Made by a program: the position numbers and the translations under genes. The notes below the pieces were generated by a model, which did no database searches, was not told the DNA's origin, and saw only the letters and a program-made list of their open reading frames with translations. Shown one piece after another: positions 32,632-38,688 of a DNA stretch of 64,000 nucleotides. The stretch comes from Flavobacteriales bacterium (GTDB taxonomy: Bacteria > Bacteroidota > Bacteroidia > Flavobacteriales_F > PHOS-HE28): positions 1-64,000 of the forward strand of contig JAEUSY010000061.1 of assembly GCA_016788295.1 (NCBI GenBank). Direction: 5' to 3'. Each line of letters opens with the position of its first letter. Position 1 is the first letter of the stretch.

Positions 32632-33576
32632 TTACGGTTTCACGAAGCGCATGGTATGGGTGCCGTGCTCGCCGGTGATGCGCAACAGGTAGCTGCCGCT
32701 GGCCAGGGTGCTGATGTCCCAGTTGCGGTGCATGGTGCCGGCCACGCTCCAGGTGCTGAGGTCGCGCACCAGGGCGCCGCTGAGGTCCAGCACCTCCAGC
32801 TGCAGCGTGCGTGCGGCATCGCTGTTCATGCGCAGGCCGAGCTGGTCGGTGACCGGGTTCGGGAAGAGCAGCAGGTCGGTGATGCCCGGCAGTTCCTCCA
32901 CGCTCACTGTGGAAGAGAAGGCGGTGGTGAGCGGCACGCTCCACGTGCCATTGGCACCACTGAAGCGGATGGTGAAGGTGTGGTCGCCGGCCGGCACGCC
33001 GGTGGGCAGGTCGGCAAGGAGGTCCACAACGCCATTGGGGCCAATGGAGCCGCTCGTGAGGTCGGCGATCTCGTCATCGATCCAGTATTCATAGCCGTTC
33101 ACCAGGCCTGCGTTCTTCACGAAGAGCGCCGTCGTTGGCACGCTCCACTCGCCATCGGCGTCGCGGAACTGCAGCGTGACCGTATTGTAGTCCTTCGTCA
33201 GCGTGCCGGGGTCGATGAGTCCGTTCAGGTCCACCAACGCGTTGGGTCCGATGCTCGCTGTTGTCAGCGTGGCCACATCGTCGTTCACCCAGAAACGATA
33301 CCCCGTGAGCACCTTGCCACTGCGGGTGAAGTGCTTGGTCTGCGGCACGCTCCAGTCGCCGTTGGTGTCGCGCACCTGGTAGCTCACCATGTGGTAGCCA
33401 GGGGCCATCGCGCCCGTAGGCCAGTTCGCCACGAGGGTCAGTTCATCCGTAACGGCCACACTGGTGGTCACCGCACTTGCTGCGTTGTCATCGAACCAGT
33501 AGCGGTAACCATTGATCTGTTGCGCCTGCACGCTGCACATGGCCGCGAGCGCAGGCAATAGCATCAAGCTGCGCAT
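32632..33576 (-). CDS. Secreted three-repeat protein with T9SS sorting domain
   Basis: A 314-residue protein with signal peptide MRSLMLLPALAAMCSVQAQ. Three ~75-residue repeats follow, each starting with a YxYW(F/I/V)(D/N)D pattern (GYRYWFDDNAAS, GYRFWVNDDVAT, GYEYWIDDEIAD) and ending in (G/E)(D/E)WSVP or GTWSVP. From about residue 232 comes the type IX sorting domain (LLLFPNPVTDQLGLRM ... HTMRFVKP). The gene starts 3 bp after the beta-helix gene ends, so it is the second gene of that operon, whose promoter carries the candidate ECF motif. The ligand is unknown. Confidence 0.9.
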   Translation of the reverse strand: MRSLMLLPALAAMCSVQAQQINGYRYWFDDNAASAVTTSVAVTDELTLVANWPTGAMAPGYHMVSYQVRDTNGDWSVPQTKHFTRSGKVLTGYRFWVNDDVATLTTASIGPNALVDLNGLIDPGTLTKDYNTVTLQFRDADGEWSVPTTALFVKNAGLVNGYEYWIDDEIADLTSGSIGPNGVVDLLADLPTGVPAGDHTFTIRFSGANGTWSVPLTTAFSSTVSVEELPGITDLLLFPNPVTDQLGLRMNSDAARTLQLEVLDLSGALVRDLSTWSVAGTMHRNWDISTLASGSYLLRITGEHGTHTMRFVKP

Positions 33577-33579
33577 GGC

Positions 33580-34668
33580 TCAGTTGGGTTGCGCGGCCAC
33601 GCGGATGTTCACCGGCAGATCGCCATTGGGGTTGGTGGCGGGTGCGATCACCGCGCTGCGGTAGTGCGGGTTGTAGGGCACGCCTCCGGGCTTGTAGGGC
33701 GATGAGGTGCCGTAGATGCCCGCGTCGGTGCCATCCGTGCCGATCGCAATACCAGGGCCGCCGGGCGCCATGTGCAGGTCATCGGTCACTTCATAGAACC
33801 CGTTGGTCTCTGAAACGAAGACCGTGGACTGCACCACGCCCTCCAGGTTGTTGGACAGAACAGCGCCAGGGGCTGAGCTTGCTATGGTCGCATTCGGGGT
33901 GATGTTGTTCTCCAGAACGCAATTGGCGCAGCCGAAAGTGGCGTAGCCCCCACTGGTCTGGATGTACGAATTGCGGATGATCGCACCGTAGGTGTTCTGG
34001 ATGGTGCCGAGCACCACGCAATTCTCCACCTGCAAGCCGCCCGCGAAGAAGGACACGATGGCAATGGTATTGAACCCATTGGCGGCGATGGTCCGCGTGA
34101 CGGTGGCCGTATGGTTCTCACCGATCAACTGGCCCTTGAGAACGCACTCATCGATGATGGTGTTGGTGTTGGCCGAAGGAGAATTGGGATATCCGAGCAC
34201 CAGGTGGCGTTGGAACCAGCAGCGTTGGAAGACGATGCCTGTTGGGGCATCGTTGGCGATCGAGTTCCCGAATTGCACGCTGGTGGTGTTCGAGGAGCCA
34301 TCCCATTGGGTGCGGGTGAACCGGATACCCGTGAAGGTGCTGCCCGATGCGGCTGTGAGGATGTACAACGGTTGGTTCACTTCTACACCGTTCAGGGTGG
34401 TCACACCGGTGGTTTGCGAACTGTCAGGGATGATCCCCGCACCGATGAAGTGCAGCTCCTTGTCGATCACCAGGCCACCGGTATAGGGGAAGGTGCCTCC
34501 GCTGAAATAGAGCTTGTCACCTGCTTGTGCAGCTGTTACCGCTGAGGTGAGGTCGGTGAACACCTGTGGTGCACCGCTGCCTTGGAGCACGATGCGTTGG
34601 AGCTGGGCCTGTGCGCCCACGCTGAGCAGGAGCGCTGCGGAGAAAAGGAGTGTACGGTCGGTTCTCAT
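33580..34668 (-). CDS. Secreted right-handed beta-helix protein
   Basis: A 362-residue protein with signal peptide (LLFSAALLLSVGAQAQ). A pectate-lyase-like right-handed beta-helix fold is suggested by the start VFTDLTSAVTAAQAGDKLYF, which is typical of this fold, and by repeated short strands with N/T/G turns (TFTGIRFTRTQW, GIVFQRCWFQRH, QVENCVVLGTIQN, CVLENNITPN). No sorting-domain PNP motif is visible, and no catalytic site was recognised. It is the first gene of an operon with the three-repeat protein. The motif GTTCACAT-N12-CCCGAT lies 29-54 bp upstream of its ATG, in sense orientation. Confidence 0.88.
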   Translation of the reverse strand: MRTDRTLLFSAALLLSVGAQAQLQRIVLQGSGAPQVFTDLTSAVTAAQAGDKLYFSGGTFPYTGGLVIDKELHFIGAGIIPDSSQTTGVTTLNGVEVNQPLYILTAASGSTFTGIRFTRTQWDGSSNTTSVQFGNSIANDAPTGIVFQRCWFQRHLVLGYPNSPSANTNTIIDECVLKGQLIGENHTATVTRTIAANGFNTIAIVSFFAGGLQVENCVVLGTIQNTYGAIIRNSYIQTSGGYATFGCANCVLENNITPNATIASSAPGAVLSNNLEGVVQSTVFVSETNGFYEVTDDLHMAPGGPGIAIGTDGTDAGIYGTSSPYKPGGVPYNPHYRSAVIAPATNPNGDLPVNIRVAAQPN

Positions 34669-34696: not shown

Positions 34697-34722
34697 ATCG
34701 GGGCAGGTGCGGGAATGTGAAC
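34697..34722 (-). promoter_or_regulatory. Candidate ECF-sigma promoter, copy a
   Basis: On the minus strand GTTCACAT, 12 nt, then CCCGAT, ending 28 nt before ATG 34668. Same elements and same spacing as at 37218-37243 and 37269-37294. Confidence 0.6.
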
Positions 34723-34747
34723 GATCGCGCTGCCGGCTGCCAGCGCC

Positions 34748-35383
34748 TCAGCGTTTTATGAGGCTGATGGCGCGCACGTTGTTGCCACCGACCACCCGTG
34801 CGGTATAGAGGCCTGGGGGCCAGTGGCCCACCTCGAGGGTGAGCTGTTCACCGGTGCCTTGCCGCTCCAGGACCATGCGCCCCATGGGGTCGAAGACCTC
34901 CACCACGGCATCGGGCCCGATACCCGCGATGTGCAACACGTGTTCCACCGGGTTCGGGTAGGCGAGCAGCAGGTCCTGTTCGCGCTGCACGGCCACCATG
35001 TTGCTCCAGGTGGCCGTTCCGTCGAGGTCGGTCTGGCGCAGCCGGTAGTAGCTGAGGCCGGGAAGGGGATCGCGGTCCAGCGCTTGGTACTCGGTGACCT
35101 GCTGCGTGGTGCCCATGCCGGGCACGTGGATGATGGCAACAAAGCGTTCGCCGTCGCTGCTGCGCTCCACCTGGAAGCCCGCGTTGTTCAGCTCTGTGGC
35201 GGTGGCCCATAGTAGCGTAACGTGCGGGCCTTCGGGCACGGCCGTGAAGTGAAGCAGTTCCACGGGCAGCACGGTGAAGCTGCTGGAGCAGGCGGTGAAG
35301 CCGCCACCACCGGTGCCGCCGGTGTATTGGGCCACAGCGGACATGGACATGCAGCAGAGCGCTATGGCGACGAGCTTTCTCAT
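34748..35383 (-). CDS. Secreted protein with T9SS sorting domain
   Basis: A 211-residue protein from ATG 35383: signal peptide MRKLVAIALCCMSMSAVAQ and a short Gly/Thr/Cys segment. A fibronectin-like block follows that is common just before sorting domains in this phylum (LPVELLHFTAVPEGPHVTLLW, TELNNAGFQVERSSDG, YYRLRQTDLDG). The type IX sorting domain is LLAYPNPVEHVLHIAG ... VRAISLIKR. The start codon overlaps by 4 bp the stop of the upstream formylglycine-generating-enzyme-like gene, so the two are co-translated and probably act together on the cell surface. The longer upstream frame overlaps that gene and was rejected. Confidence 0.9.
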   Translation of the reverse strand: MRKLVAIALCCMSMSAVAQYTGGTGGGGFTACSSSFTVLPVELLHFTAVPEGPHVTLLWATATELNNAGFQVERSSDGERFVAIIHVPGMGTTQQVTEYQALDRDPLPGLSYYRLRQTDLDGTATWSNMVAVQREQDLLLAYPNPVEHVLHIAGIGPDAVVEVFDPMGRMVLERQGTGEQLTLEVGHWPPGLYTARVVGGNNVRAISLIKR

Positions 35384-37209
35384 GGCATGGTGCGCACGCC
35401 GCGGCCTCCGAACATGGCGTATCCATTGGCTGCTGGCGCACTCGCGTAGAAGCGGTGCGAAGTCGCACAGGCTACTAGCGATGATGTATAGTTCCCTCCT
35501 CGATACCCCCAGCCAGCGATGACCGCGGGCCACATCCCCGCATCGTGGAGCCCTGCCTGATCAAGCATGCCATTGCCATGTGTCCCGGTGAAAGCGCGCC
35601 CAGCTGGCTGCCCGACCGTGATGCAGAACTCACCAAGATTGCCGCTCATGTGCAGTGCACCATAGTAGGAGGCCCCAGCTGTTATGCGACCGCTGTTCGA
35701 TGCATGGTGCGAGAAGATGCCACCCCGCAGCGGTCCGATCGAGATCGCAGTCTGCGCGTAGGCCGCGTTCCCTGAAACGGTCCCATATCCGCTACTGACC
35801 TGTTCACTGGCAGTGCCGGCATTGACTATGCCGTATATGGTTGCGGGAGAATTAGCGGTGCCCCAAGCGAGCTCGTTCAGAACAGGGGATAGCGGGCCTC
35901 GGCAAGTTTTCTCGAACTCAAGCTCCGACATCGGCCGTAATCCGCTCCAATCAAGGTAGGCCGAAAGGTCAGACCATCGCATGAAATTGCACGGGATCCA
36001 CTGCCCATCTGCCGCCTCGAAGCCGATCCCATTGCCATTCAGATCGCAATCGAAGGTGATGGGGTCATTGGCAACCACAGTGGCAGCGCATCGAACACCA
36101 TTCCTATTTATCATCGTAGCGGTGTTGGTCATGACATAGCGATTCATGATAGCCGTGGTGCCTACAGGCAGCGCTGTTGCAGTGCGCGCATCCTGCTGCT
36201 GCCGCGTGAGCCTGTTCAGGAAGTTCACGTAGTCCGCCTGGGCTAGCTCGTACTTCATGCAGTAGAATGGTACGGTGCCCTTCGGATAAGCTGCTGGAAT
36301 GGGGCCTAACTGGTCGCCAGGTTGCTGAAAGGCGCTGGCGGCGTAGTACAGACTGCCGTTGGATGTGCCTACCGTAATCGCTGCCTCATTGCTGACGAGG
36401 TAAGTACTGCTCGTGTTCGGAGCAGTGTAGAATCCCCCATTTGTGGTGGTCGATTGCCCATCACCAAGTCGGAAACTCCCACCCGTCACATACACCATCT
36501 CGTGCCCGAAGGCGCACACCTCCACCGGAGCACCGATCACCAAGCCCTGTGAACCGTAGTTCCAGCGCAGTTCCACGTTGCTGGCCGTGAAGGTGCCCGT
36601 GCCGTTGGCGCTGCGGTAGATGAAGGCGCCTACCCCGTAGTTGGTGGTGGCGTTGTAGGCCGCTGCGGGTGTGAGCAGGCCCGTGCGGATGGTGCTGCCC
36701 GCAGGCGCGAAGTGCGCGGCATCGTTCGCCAGCCGTGCATGCTCCCAGATGCGGATGAAGCGCACCGTGGCCCCGGCCAGTGCGGTGGTGGGTGCTGCGC
36801 TGATGGTGACCTGCGTGCCGTTGGGTATGGCGGTTATCACCGTGTTCGCGGGTATCGTTCCGGTTCCCGCCGTGCGCAACACGGGCATACCCACCCGCAG
36901 GTGCTGCGTGTTGCCCACGTTCAAGGTGGTGCCGGTGCTGCTCACGCCCGTGCGTGTCGGGTCGGCCGTGCCCACACGGAACTTCAGGAAGACCCAAGCC
37001 GCATCCCAGTTGCCCGGTGCGCTCGTCGTGCGCCAACTGTTCTGCCAGCTGATGGTGAAGCGCACATCCACCGTGCCGGCCGTGCCGTTGAAGTCCATCA
37101 GCACGGGCTGCGTGATGGAGAGGTTGTTGGCCTGCACGTTCGCGCATGGCAGCGCCCCGAAGAGGAGCGCCATTGCGCATGACCGCCAGCGCGCGTGTAC
37201 GTGCTTCAT
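35380..37209 (-). CDS. Secreted formylglycine-generating-enzyme (SUMF1)-like protein
   Basis: A 609-residue protein. A signal peptide (MALLFGALPCANVQA) starts at M13, so the true start may be ATG 37173; ATG 37209 adds 12 basic residues and lies unusually close to the candidate promoter. Residues ~30-225 are a beta-rich domain (VDVRFTISWQNSWRT). Residues ~235-609 match the FGE-sulfatase fold: MVYVTGGSFRLGDG start, KYELAQADYVNFLN, the RWSDLSAYLDWSGLRPMSELEFEKTCRG core and the ending GNYTSS ... RFYASA. Most such secreted Bacteroidota proteins lack the copper-binding cysteines and act as binding modules; I did not see the full pair here. It is coupled to a sorting-domain protein. Confidence 0.9.
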   Translation of the reverse strand: MKHVHARWRSCAMALLFGALPCANVQANNLSITQPVLMDFNGTAGTVDVRFTISWQNSWRTTSAPGNWDAAWVFLKFRVGTADPTRTGVSSTGTTLNVGNTQHLRVGMPVLRTAGTGTIPANTVITAIPNGTQVTISAAPTTALAGATVRFIRIWEHARLANDAAHFAPAGSTIRTGLLTPAAAYNATTNYGVGAFIYRSANGTGTFTASNVELRWNYGSQGLVIGAPVEVCAFGHEMVYVTGGSFRLGDGQSTTTNGGFYTAPNTSSTYLVSNEAAITVGTSNGSLYYAASAFQQPGDQLGPIPAAYPKGTVPFYCMKYELAQADYVNFLNRLTRQQQDARTATALPVGTTAIMNRYVMTNTATMINRNGVRCAATVVANDPITFDCDLNGNGIGFEAADGQWIPCNFMRWSDLSAYLDWSGLRPMSELEFEKTCRGPLSPVLNELAWGTANSPATIYGIVNAGTASEQVSSGYGTVSGNAAYAQTAISIGPLRGGIFSHHASNSGRITAGASYYGALHMSGNLGEFCITVGQPAGRAFTGTHGNGMLDQAGLHDAGMWPAVIAGWGYRGGNYTSSLVACATSHRFYASAPAANGYAMFGGRGVRTMP

Positions 37210-37217
37210 GCCCCTTC

Positions 37218-37243
37218 ATCGGGAAGCCTGCCGCGATGTGAAC
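37218..37243 (-). promoter_or_regulatory. Candidate ECF-sigma promoter, copy b
   Basis: On the minus strand GTTCACAT, 12 nt, CCCGAT, ending 8 nt before ATG 37209. It shares the longer word CGCGATCGTTCACAT with copy a. Confidence 0.55.
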
Positions 37244-37268
37244 GATCGCGTGTAAGAATTCATCCGGT

Positions 37269-37294
37269 GTTCACATTCCCGCCCGTTCCCCGAT
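37269..37294 (+). promoter_or_regulatory. Candidate ECF-sigma promoter, copy c (autoregulation)
   Basis: GTTCACAT, 12 nt, CCCGAT on the plus strand, divergent from copy b with about 25 bp between the GTTCACAT boxes. It precedes the sigma factor gene itself. Confidence 0.55.
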
Positions 37295-37390
37295 AACGTG
37301 CTGGTAGGGCAGGCCAAGCGCCTGTCCGCAACAGGAACATGTGGCACTTGGACCGGACTTCGTATCATCGTGCTCCGCTTCTTTCTCCCT

Positions 37391-37972
37391 GTGGAAGCCA
37401 GAGACAACGAACCCCTTGCCGAGCCGAACTGGGCCACGGGACTTCGCTGCAACGATGCGGCCACGGTGCGCGCGCTCTACAAGCAGCACTTCCCGGCCAT
37501 CAGGCAGTATGTGGTAGGCAACAGTGGTACAACGGACGATGCACAGGACATCTTCCAGGAGGCCATGACGGTGCTCTGGCTCAAAGCGAAGGAACGATCG
37601 TTGGCGGTGGGCAGCGAGCCCGGCGCCTTCCTCTTCCAAGTGGCGAAGAACAAATGGCTCGATGTGGTGCGGTCGGCCGCGCATAAGCACATGAAGGTCG
37701 TACACGACGAAGGGAGGCTGGATGTCCGCGCGGAAACGCCGGACGATACCGAGGAGAAGCTCCAACGGCTCCGTTCGGTCTATGGCCAATTGGACGAGAA
37801 GTGCCGCACGGTGCTCGATCAGTTCTATTTCGAGCGCAAGGACCTGGCCACCATCGCGGCCGGCATGGGCGTGGAGGAAGAGAGCATCCGTACCATCAAG
37901 TACCGCTGCATGATGAAACTGCGTGCTTCGCGCAGGACCATCGCCGGCGAAGCGAACACCAGCGGAACATGA
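37391..37972 (+). CDS. ECF-type RNA polymerase sigma factor
   Basis: A 193-residue sigma-70 family (extracytoplasmic function) factor from GTG 37391. An upstream GTG at 37298 is possible but would lie at or before the expected transcript start of promoter copy c. Region 2: VRALYKQHFPAIRQYVVGN, DDAQDIFQEAMTVLWLKA, and the -10 reading AFLFQVAKNKWLDVVR. Region 4: LQRLRSVYGQLDEKCRTVLDQFYFE with the HTH DLATIAAGMGVEEESIRTIKYRC, quoted in parts. It directs RNA polymerase to a small set of promoters. The stop overlaps the start of the next gene by 4 bp, and the operon ends with a CHAT protease. Confidence 0.93.
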   Translation: MEARDNEPLAEPNWATGLRCNDAATVRALYKQHFPAIRQYVVGNSGTTDDAQDIFQEAMTVLWLKAKERSLAVGSEPGAFLFQVAKNKWLDVVRSAAHKHMKVVHDEGRLDVRAETPDDTEEKLQRLRSVYGQLDEKCRTVLDQFYFERKDLATIAAGMGVEEESIRTIKYRCMMKLRASRRTIAGEANTSGT

Positions 37973-38688
37973 GCGCACTGGACAAACCCACCTTCGAGCG
38001 GATCGAGGCCTACGTGCTCGATCGTATGGGTGCCGATGAGCGCCTGGCATTCGAGCAGCGTATGGCGACCGATCATGCCTTGCGCGCCGAAGTGGAGCTG
38101 GAACGCGAGAACATCCTGGCCATCGAACTGGGCGGCATGGAACGCCTGCTGAAGGCCGCACGGGCAGAGCATCCCGAGCGACGCAACGAAGGCGGTGGCC
38201 TGTCCACCTGGCTGAAGTACGCGGCGGTGCTGGCGGTGTTGCTGGGCGGCACACTGTGGTTCACACTACGGCCCAACGCCAACGAGCGGCTTTTCGCTGC
38301 GCACTTCAGGCCCGATCCCGGCCTGCCCGTGGTGATGGGCGCCACCGAAGGTCATACCTTCCACGATGCCATGGTGGCCTACAAGCTCGGTGATCATGAC
38401 GAGGCCATCGGCAAGTTCACCGCGCTCCTGAAAGAGGATCCCGCGAGCGATACACTGCGTTTTTACATCGGCTGCGCGGAGTTGAACGCAGGACGTGCGG
38501 AGCGTGCACTACCGATGCTCCAGGCCGTGGCCGATCAAGAGCGCTCCGTGTTCGCCCGCAAGGCGCGTTGGTACGCCTTCCTTGCCCTGGTGCGCAGCGG
38601 CGACCGGAACGCTGCGGCAGCGGTGCGGTTCGAGGTGGACGATCCGAACGGCGCGAAGGCCCGGGCCGTGCTGTCCGAACTCAACTAG
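37969..38688 (+). CDS. Anti-sigma-like single-TM protein with TPR-like periplasmic part
   Basis: A 239-residue protein. The N-terminal ~75 residues are a helical cytoplasmic domain (FERIEAYVLDRMGADERLAF) like those of anti-sigma factors. One TM helix lies near 83-99 (YAAVLAVLLGGTLWFTL). The periplasmic remainder holds two or three TPR-like repeats (MVAYKLGDHDEAIGKFTALL, IGCAELNAGRAERALPMLQA). It lacks the zinc-binding HxxxCxxC motif of ZAS anti-sigmas. The start overlaps the sigma gene by 4 bp, so it probably holds that sigma factor at the membrane until a signal arrives. This follows from the architecture and context, not from experiment. Confidence 0.85.
   Translation: MSALDKPTFERIEAYVLDRMGADERLAFEQRMATDHALRAEVELERENILAIELGGMERLLKAARAEHPERRNEGGGLSTWLKYAAVLAVLLGGTLWFTLRPNANERLFAAHFRPDPGLPVVMGATEGHTFHDAMVAYKLGDHDEAIGKFTALLKEDPASDTLRFYIGCAELNAGRAERALPMLQAVADQERSVFARKARWYAFLALVRSGDRNAAAAVRFEVDDPNGAKARAVLSELN

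Follow-up and report, generated by a model that had tools for sequence, protein, structure and literature searches.

Membrane-bound anti-σ factors of envelope-stress ECF σ factors are known from the RpoE-RseA-DegS system of E. coli and from Bacteroides, where dual-membrane anti-σ factors of the EcfO-Reo type occur (PMC9308784; PMC10028731). A Bacteroidota ECF σ factor that serves the T9SS is found in the SigP/PorXY system of Porphyromonas gingivalis (PMC4800418). CHAT-domain proteins appear in the gene context of ECF54, for which control by proteolysis (CHAT proteases included) has been proposed without an anti-σ factor (PMC8999054). In type III-E CRISPR systems, the TPR-CHAT protease Csx29 cleaves the σ inhibitor Csx30 (Strecker et al. 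2022, PMC10028731), and the CASP-σ motifs lie within the system's own type III-E locus (PMC10028731). In the literature that we searched, with the main ECF classification outside its scope, we found no description of an ECF/anti-σ/CHAT operon in Bacteroidota or of the motif reported here.

The locus lies in a 64-kb stretch of DNA, referred to here as the window. Its relevant features, together with one site on another contig of the same genome, are as follows.

32632..33576, minus strand: T9SS-tailed protein directly 3' of the beta-helix gene (Pfam Por_Secre_tail, 1.8e-10)
33580..34668, minus strand: beta-helix-like secreted protein (putative fold, from the translation), first gene behind copy a
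34697..34722, minus strand: candidate promoter copy a, exact match (GTTCACAT at 34715-34722, N12, CCCGAT at 34697-34702), ahead of the beta-helix gene and the T9SS-tailed gene that follows it
34748..35383, minus strand: T9SS-tailed protein of the FGE-like operon (Pfam Por_Secre_tail, 4.8e-7)
35380..37209, minus strand: FGE-like secreted protein (Pfam FGE-sulfatase, 2.1e-7)
37218..37243, minus strand: candidate promoter copy b, exact match (GTTCACAT at 37236-37243, N12, CCCGAT at 37218-37223), ahead of the FGE-like operon
37269..37294, plus strand: candidate promoter copy c, exact match (GTTCACAT at 37269-37276, N12, CCCGAT at 37289-37294), ahead of the ECF/anti-σ/TPR-CHAT operon
37391..37972, plus strand: ECF σ factor with regions 2 and 4 (Pfam Sigma70_r2, 2.5e-8, and Sigma70_r4, 2.2e-7; alignment of 33 orthologs)
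37969..38688, plus strand: anti-σ-like protein of 239 amino acids, 4-bp overlap with the ECF stop codon
38691..41921, plus strand: TPR-CHAT protease of 1076 amino acids (Pfam CHAT, 1.7e-53)
C38:13986-14011, plus strand: fourth exact copy, ending ∼40 bp 5' of the ATG start of a gene whose product begins MKKWLPPASLALVGAIVTG

Compared with ECF54, for which PMC8999054 describes no anti-σ factor, a CHAT gene lies near the ECF gene here too, but in this locus an anti-σ-like gene overlaps the ECF stop codon.

The first-pass annotation had reported GTTCACAT-N12-CCCGAT three times within 2.6 kb, and all three copies proved to be exact at the positions and strands given above. Copies b and c stand back to back, with 25 bp between their GTTCACAT boxes. 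When up to 2 mismatches were allowed, a scan of the window returned copies a, b, and c only; dinucleotide-shuffled windows scanned with 2 mismatches gave a mean of 0.32 matches, and 0 of 100 reached three. Genome-wide work consisted of pattern searches. The 61 contigs of the own genome (3.78 Mb) contain four exact matches, i.e., copies a, b, and c and the site on C38, compared with a uniform expectation of 0.03 (P of at least four, ∼3e-8), and with these four exact sites the regulon of this genome looks very small. Three sites with one mismatch, on C14, C43, and C61, lie inside open genes and were taken as chance. A looser search for GTTCACAT-N13/14-CGAT added two sites, which we set aside, namely the in-gene site on C14 and one at C55:28903 in coding-like surroundings. 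The CGCGATC string that copies a and b share upstream is real and forms part of a weak genus-wide extension, with C or T at base −1 in every copy and mostly G at base −4.

We then searched for the 26-bp pattern in 98 genomes, of which 45 belong to the genus (the own one included) and 53 lie outside it. The genus contains 74 exact N12 copies (4 in the own genome and 70 in 44 relatives), with 0 for the reversed-pattern control, and the exact motif was found in only 1 of the 53 outside genomes, as one copy. All 74 copies were retrieved with their surroundings, using gene starts from a simple purpose-made gene caller. A same-strand gene follows directly downstream in 71 of them, and none of the 74 lies within a gene; the three that lack a called downstream gene are two copies at contig ends and one (L150) with an ATG ∼25 nt downstream of the motif but no gene called there. 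The first-pass annotation had suggested a genome-wide search, and in the own genome as well as in the genus the motif occurred neither at chance frequency nor within genes. Varying the spacer from 8 to 18 in the genus gave 74 copies at 12, 15 at 11, 14 at 10 (which include one string repeated in several genomes), and 11 at the remaining lengths combined. The spacing of exactly 12 claimed earlier therefore holds for most copies but is not exclusive, since 11 is used too (74 N12 versus 15 N11 copies), and all 9 N11 copies in the retrieved loci stand upstream of genes. In a search of 2.9 million viral contigs, 101 stretches had a match, one each in the 80 listed, which we regarded as background.

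Distant ECF homologs (27 to 38% identity; Algoriphagus, Terrimonas, and others) lack the motif, suggesting that the promoter is confined to the genus. In Terrimonas ginsenosidimutans (L202 with L354), the ECF, anti-σ, and TPR-CHAT genes are arranged alike and the CHAT motifs are intact, again without this promoter motif, which indicates an operon type wider than the promoter sequence. It thus seems that the promoter sequence is restricted to this genus and that the operon type reaches further. In Algoriphagus (L201 with L355), a CHAT gene lies near an ECF gene in a different arrangement.

Orthologs of the ECF σ factor (54 to 81% identity) are present in 33 of the 45 genus genomes. The motif stands upstream of the ECF ortholog in 33 of 33 loci that have upstream DNA, exactly in 16, with one mismatch in 10, and with two in 7; in the shuffle control, 9 of 1,980 sequences had it with two mismatches and none with fewer. 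At these σ genes, almost no variation occurs in GTTCACAT or in the terminal CGAT; the two leading C of CCCGAT do vary, and the leader around the motif has diverged between genomes. A second, opposite-facing copy is found in 26 of 32 ECF loci, compared with 10 of 1,920 simulated or shuffled sequences, and the inner gap between the back-to-back GTTCACAT boxes measures 22 to 26 bp in 16 of those 26 loci. The gene behind this second copy varies by genome, being FGE-like, beta-helix, of the QTETEPNN type, an ELW-DGT repeat protein, or of the LuxR type. The pair (37218-37294 in the window; loci L091-L123) thus persists as the divergent gene is swapped between genomes, in the manner of a cargo slot. 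Without a function, it would be hard to account for a double promoter that stays constant as its cargo changes. These data bear on two earlier expectations: that the motif would be conserved beside orthologous σ genes, which was found at all 33 testable loci, and that the ECF σ factor regulates itself and adjacent targets, which is supported by the motif at its own gene in 33 of 33 loci and by the divergent copy in 26 of 32.

A second conserved leader element, [A/T]TG ... TAT[T/C]ATCG with a fixed 24-nt spacing, follows the motif and precedes the ECF start (37339-37370 in the window; L091-L123). Almost every locus keeps its ATG frame open for 115 to 130 codons, overlapping the ECF gene out of frame with it. 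Possible readings of the element are a second, basal promoter, an ORF in the leader, and a frameshift start. We abandoned the idea that it is a housekeeping box used across the genus, since the box enriched ahead of genes is TAnnTTTG.

Behind copy a, the beta-helix-like protein has no Pfam match, and its family recurs behind the motif in three more loci (L101, L104, and L170). Its gene is probably cotranscribed with the T9SS-tailed gene at 32632..33576, from which a 3-bp gap separates it. Since the first ATG of the FGE-like gene (37207-37209) nearly coincides with the expected transcription start, the ATG at 37173 (MALLFGALPC...) is the likelier start. Apart from the ECF operon itself, the families found behind the motif in several genomes include a lipobox lipoprotein (14), a small GerE/LuxR-HTH protein (13), and a range of secreted or T9SS-tailed families, namely ELW-DGT repeats (6), DUF5122 propellers (5), a loosely joined repeat group (5), BNR-like repeats (4), the QTETEPNN type (4), beta-helix (4), and FGE-like proteins (3). 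The prediction of an envelope regulon of secreted and T9SS proteins thus agrees with the targets of the relatives, which are lipoproteins and secreted and T9SS-tailed proteins; no T9SS machine component was recognized among the targets scanned. Members of the lipobox lipoprotein family (L156 and 13 relatives) have ∼365 to 430 amino acids and often begin 20 to 24 nt behind the motif, and the one member scanned had no Pfam match. The GerE/LuxR-HTH protein is a recurrent motif target of 146 to 161 amino acids with a variable N-terminal part (L104, L106, L109-L112, L114, L116, L145, L157, L160, and L165). Its gene often diverges from the ECF gene and has genes for secreted proteins behind it. An in-frame stop is present in some relatives.

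We propose that RNA polymerase carrying the ECF σ factor (37391-37972) would read GTTCACAT-N11/12-(CC)CGAT as a core promoter. By binding the motif, the σ factor would activate its own operon, comprising the ECF, anti-σ, and TPR-CHAT genes, and would also turn on a few surface and secreted proteins. The motif is non-palindromic, spans ∼26 bp, has a strict 11- to 12-bp spacer, and occurs in a single orientation, and its length and spacer are compatible with the −35/−10 pair of an ECF σ factor. The start codons of many targets lie 19 to 24 nt after CCCGAT, a distance that can accommodate a transcript start but no further promoter. In these genomes, the −7 box typical of Bacteroidota, TAnnTTTG, is enriched ahead of genes, and it was found near 0 of 79 motif sites versus 21 of 274 other intergenic regions. 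The missing box, the lack of space for a separate promoter before many start codons, and the asymmetric, strictly spaced, one-way form of the motif all argue against its being a transcription factor operator, e.g., for the small LuxR/GerE-type protein, at genes that use some other promoter. An operator would fit the many genomes in which the motif-bearing divergent neighbor of the ECF gene is a GerE-HTH protein, but G000, G010, and G022 have the motif with another gene in the divergent place, and the LuxR relatives in G000 are only generic, so that we give this explanation a very low probability.

The assignment to the adjacent σ factor draws on co-occurrence as well. Exact N12 sites were found in 28 of the 33 genomes with an ECF ortholog versus 2 of the 12 without one (p, 4.7e-5), leaving five ECF-positive genomes without an exact N12 copy. 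The presence of the ECF gene changes at least nine times on the purA tree, and phylogenetically independent pairs agree by 3.0 to 0.2 on well-supported branches; with phylogeny counted, co-occurrence alone is not significant on these branches (sign test, median p of 0.25), because there are too few independent pairs. Among the genomes without an ECF ortholog, G005 has one site. G037 (L125-L128) has four well-placed copies before surface-protein genes, and a search of its assembly, which has 310 contigs and 9% contamination, found no ECF ortholog, anti-σ, or CHAT gene. The motif might then be the promoter of a different σ factor in the same genomes, with the ECF operon merely one of its targets. 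The G037 sites and the further ECF paralogs in these genomes speak for this possibility, yet loss of the motif accompanies loss of this ECF, the motif precedes this ECF gene at every testable locus, and three of the only four exact copies in the own genome surround this operon. We regard a different σ factor as improbable to much the same degree as the operator. That three of the four own-genome copies fall within 2.6 kb might suggest chance or a functionless local duplication, but the spacers and flanks differ between the copies, the same placement recurs in relatives despite the diverged leader, and the genus-wide counts, gene placement, and ECF-ortholog loci already refute this idea, leaving it a negligible probability.

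Comparison across the genus shows that the element is real, has a fixed orientation, sits where genes start, and is linked to this σ operon. As far as sequence comparison can tell, the three identical boxes very probably mark a small gene set switched on by one alternative σ factor, its own operon included. We hold with considerable confidence the joint reading of a promoter recognized by the adjacent ECF σ factor, autoregulation, and a surface and secreted regulon.

The ECF gene likely starts at the GTG at 37391, a conserved start position, with an in-frame alternative at 37370. No region 3 match was found in Pfam, and the best solved relatives of the protein are ECF factors such as SigL. Next to it, the anti-σ-like protein is modeled (mean pLDDT, 87) with a helical N terminus (residues 6 to 66), a transmembrane (TM) segment at ∼78 to 100, and TPRs at 104 to 238. 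Its orthologs have roughly 240 amino acids, with one TM segment near residue 80 in all examined and an invariant PGLPV just after it. A profile search returned only TPRs and, at a marginal E of 0.72, the anti-σ partner chain in 3hug, and a fold search returned TPR proteins only. Its role as an anti-σ factor is inferred from position and architecture. In the near-identical genomes G010 and G044, a gap and no overlap separates the ECF and anti-σ genes. The TPR-CHAT protease carries a signal-like segment at its N terminus and a TM segment at its C terminus, the latter shared by most of the orthologs (roughly 1075 amino acids); His901 and Cys951 of the CHAT domain are invariant among the full-length orthologs. 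Its structural neighbors include separase and Csx29 (8eey_B), based on a model that is confident over the TPRs and poor in the catalytic domain.

In the mechanism that we propose, the one-TM anti-σ factor would tether the σ factor to the membrane. Upon an envelope signal, the TPR-CHAT protease, exported and anchored in the membrane, would cleave the anti-σ factor and so free the σ factor. Cleavage by the CHAT protease is proposed because of the Csx29-Csx30 precedent (PMC10028731). We put forward the combination of membrane retention and signal-dependent cleavage tentatively, giving it somewhat less than an even chance.

The promoter and its regulon are well supported by the comparisons made here and, as far as we searched, undescribed. 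For an uncultured genus of Flavobacteriales, they supply a promoter and a regulon defined at the sequence level; the relatives of this genus are known as metagenome-assembled genomes, of which several come from activated sludge. They also place an ECF σ factor, an anti-σ-like protein, and a TPR-CHAT protease together in a conserved operon outside CRISPR. With a back-to-back promoter and exchangeable cargo genes, the surface-protein repertoire could change under fixed control.

Like SigP, the σ factor described here is a Bacteroidota ECF linked to the T9SS, but SigP serves T9SS component genes below a two-component system, whereas the targets seen here are lipoproteins and cargo-like proteins with T9SS tails, and the σ factor is partnered by an anti-σ-like protein and a CHAT protease. 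The predicted membrane-bound anti-σ factor recalls those of RpoE-RseA-DegS and EcfO-Reo, but the candidate first protease is caspase-like (CHAT), and the anti-σ factor has TPRs and no beta-barrel or RseB-bound domain. With Csx29-Csx30-CASP-σ, this locus shares an ECF-type σ factor, a putative protein inhibitor of it, a TPR-CHAT protease, and motifs within the σ factor's own locus. It differs in that the inhibitor-like protein is a one-TM TPR protein of 239 amino acids (versus 565 for Csx30), in that the protease bears signal-like and TM segments and is apparently extracytoplasmic, and in that the targets are surface proteins; none of the type III-E partners Cas7-11, Csx30, and Csx31 was seen beside the operon. 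It is conceivable, though in our estimate rather doubtful, that the chromosomal, non-CRISPR TPR-CHAT protein is the envelope sensor and first protease of a Bacteroidota ECF/anti-σ pair that controls the surface-protein repertoire, and that the CRISPR Csx29-Csx30-CASP-σ cascade is one borrowed version of this wider module. The kind of system is known; the combination of a CHAT protease, a TPR anti-σ factor, and T9SS cargo is new.
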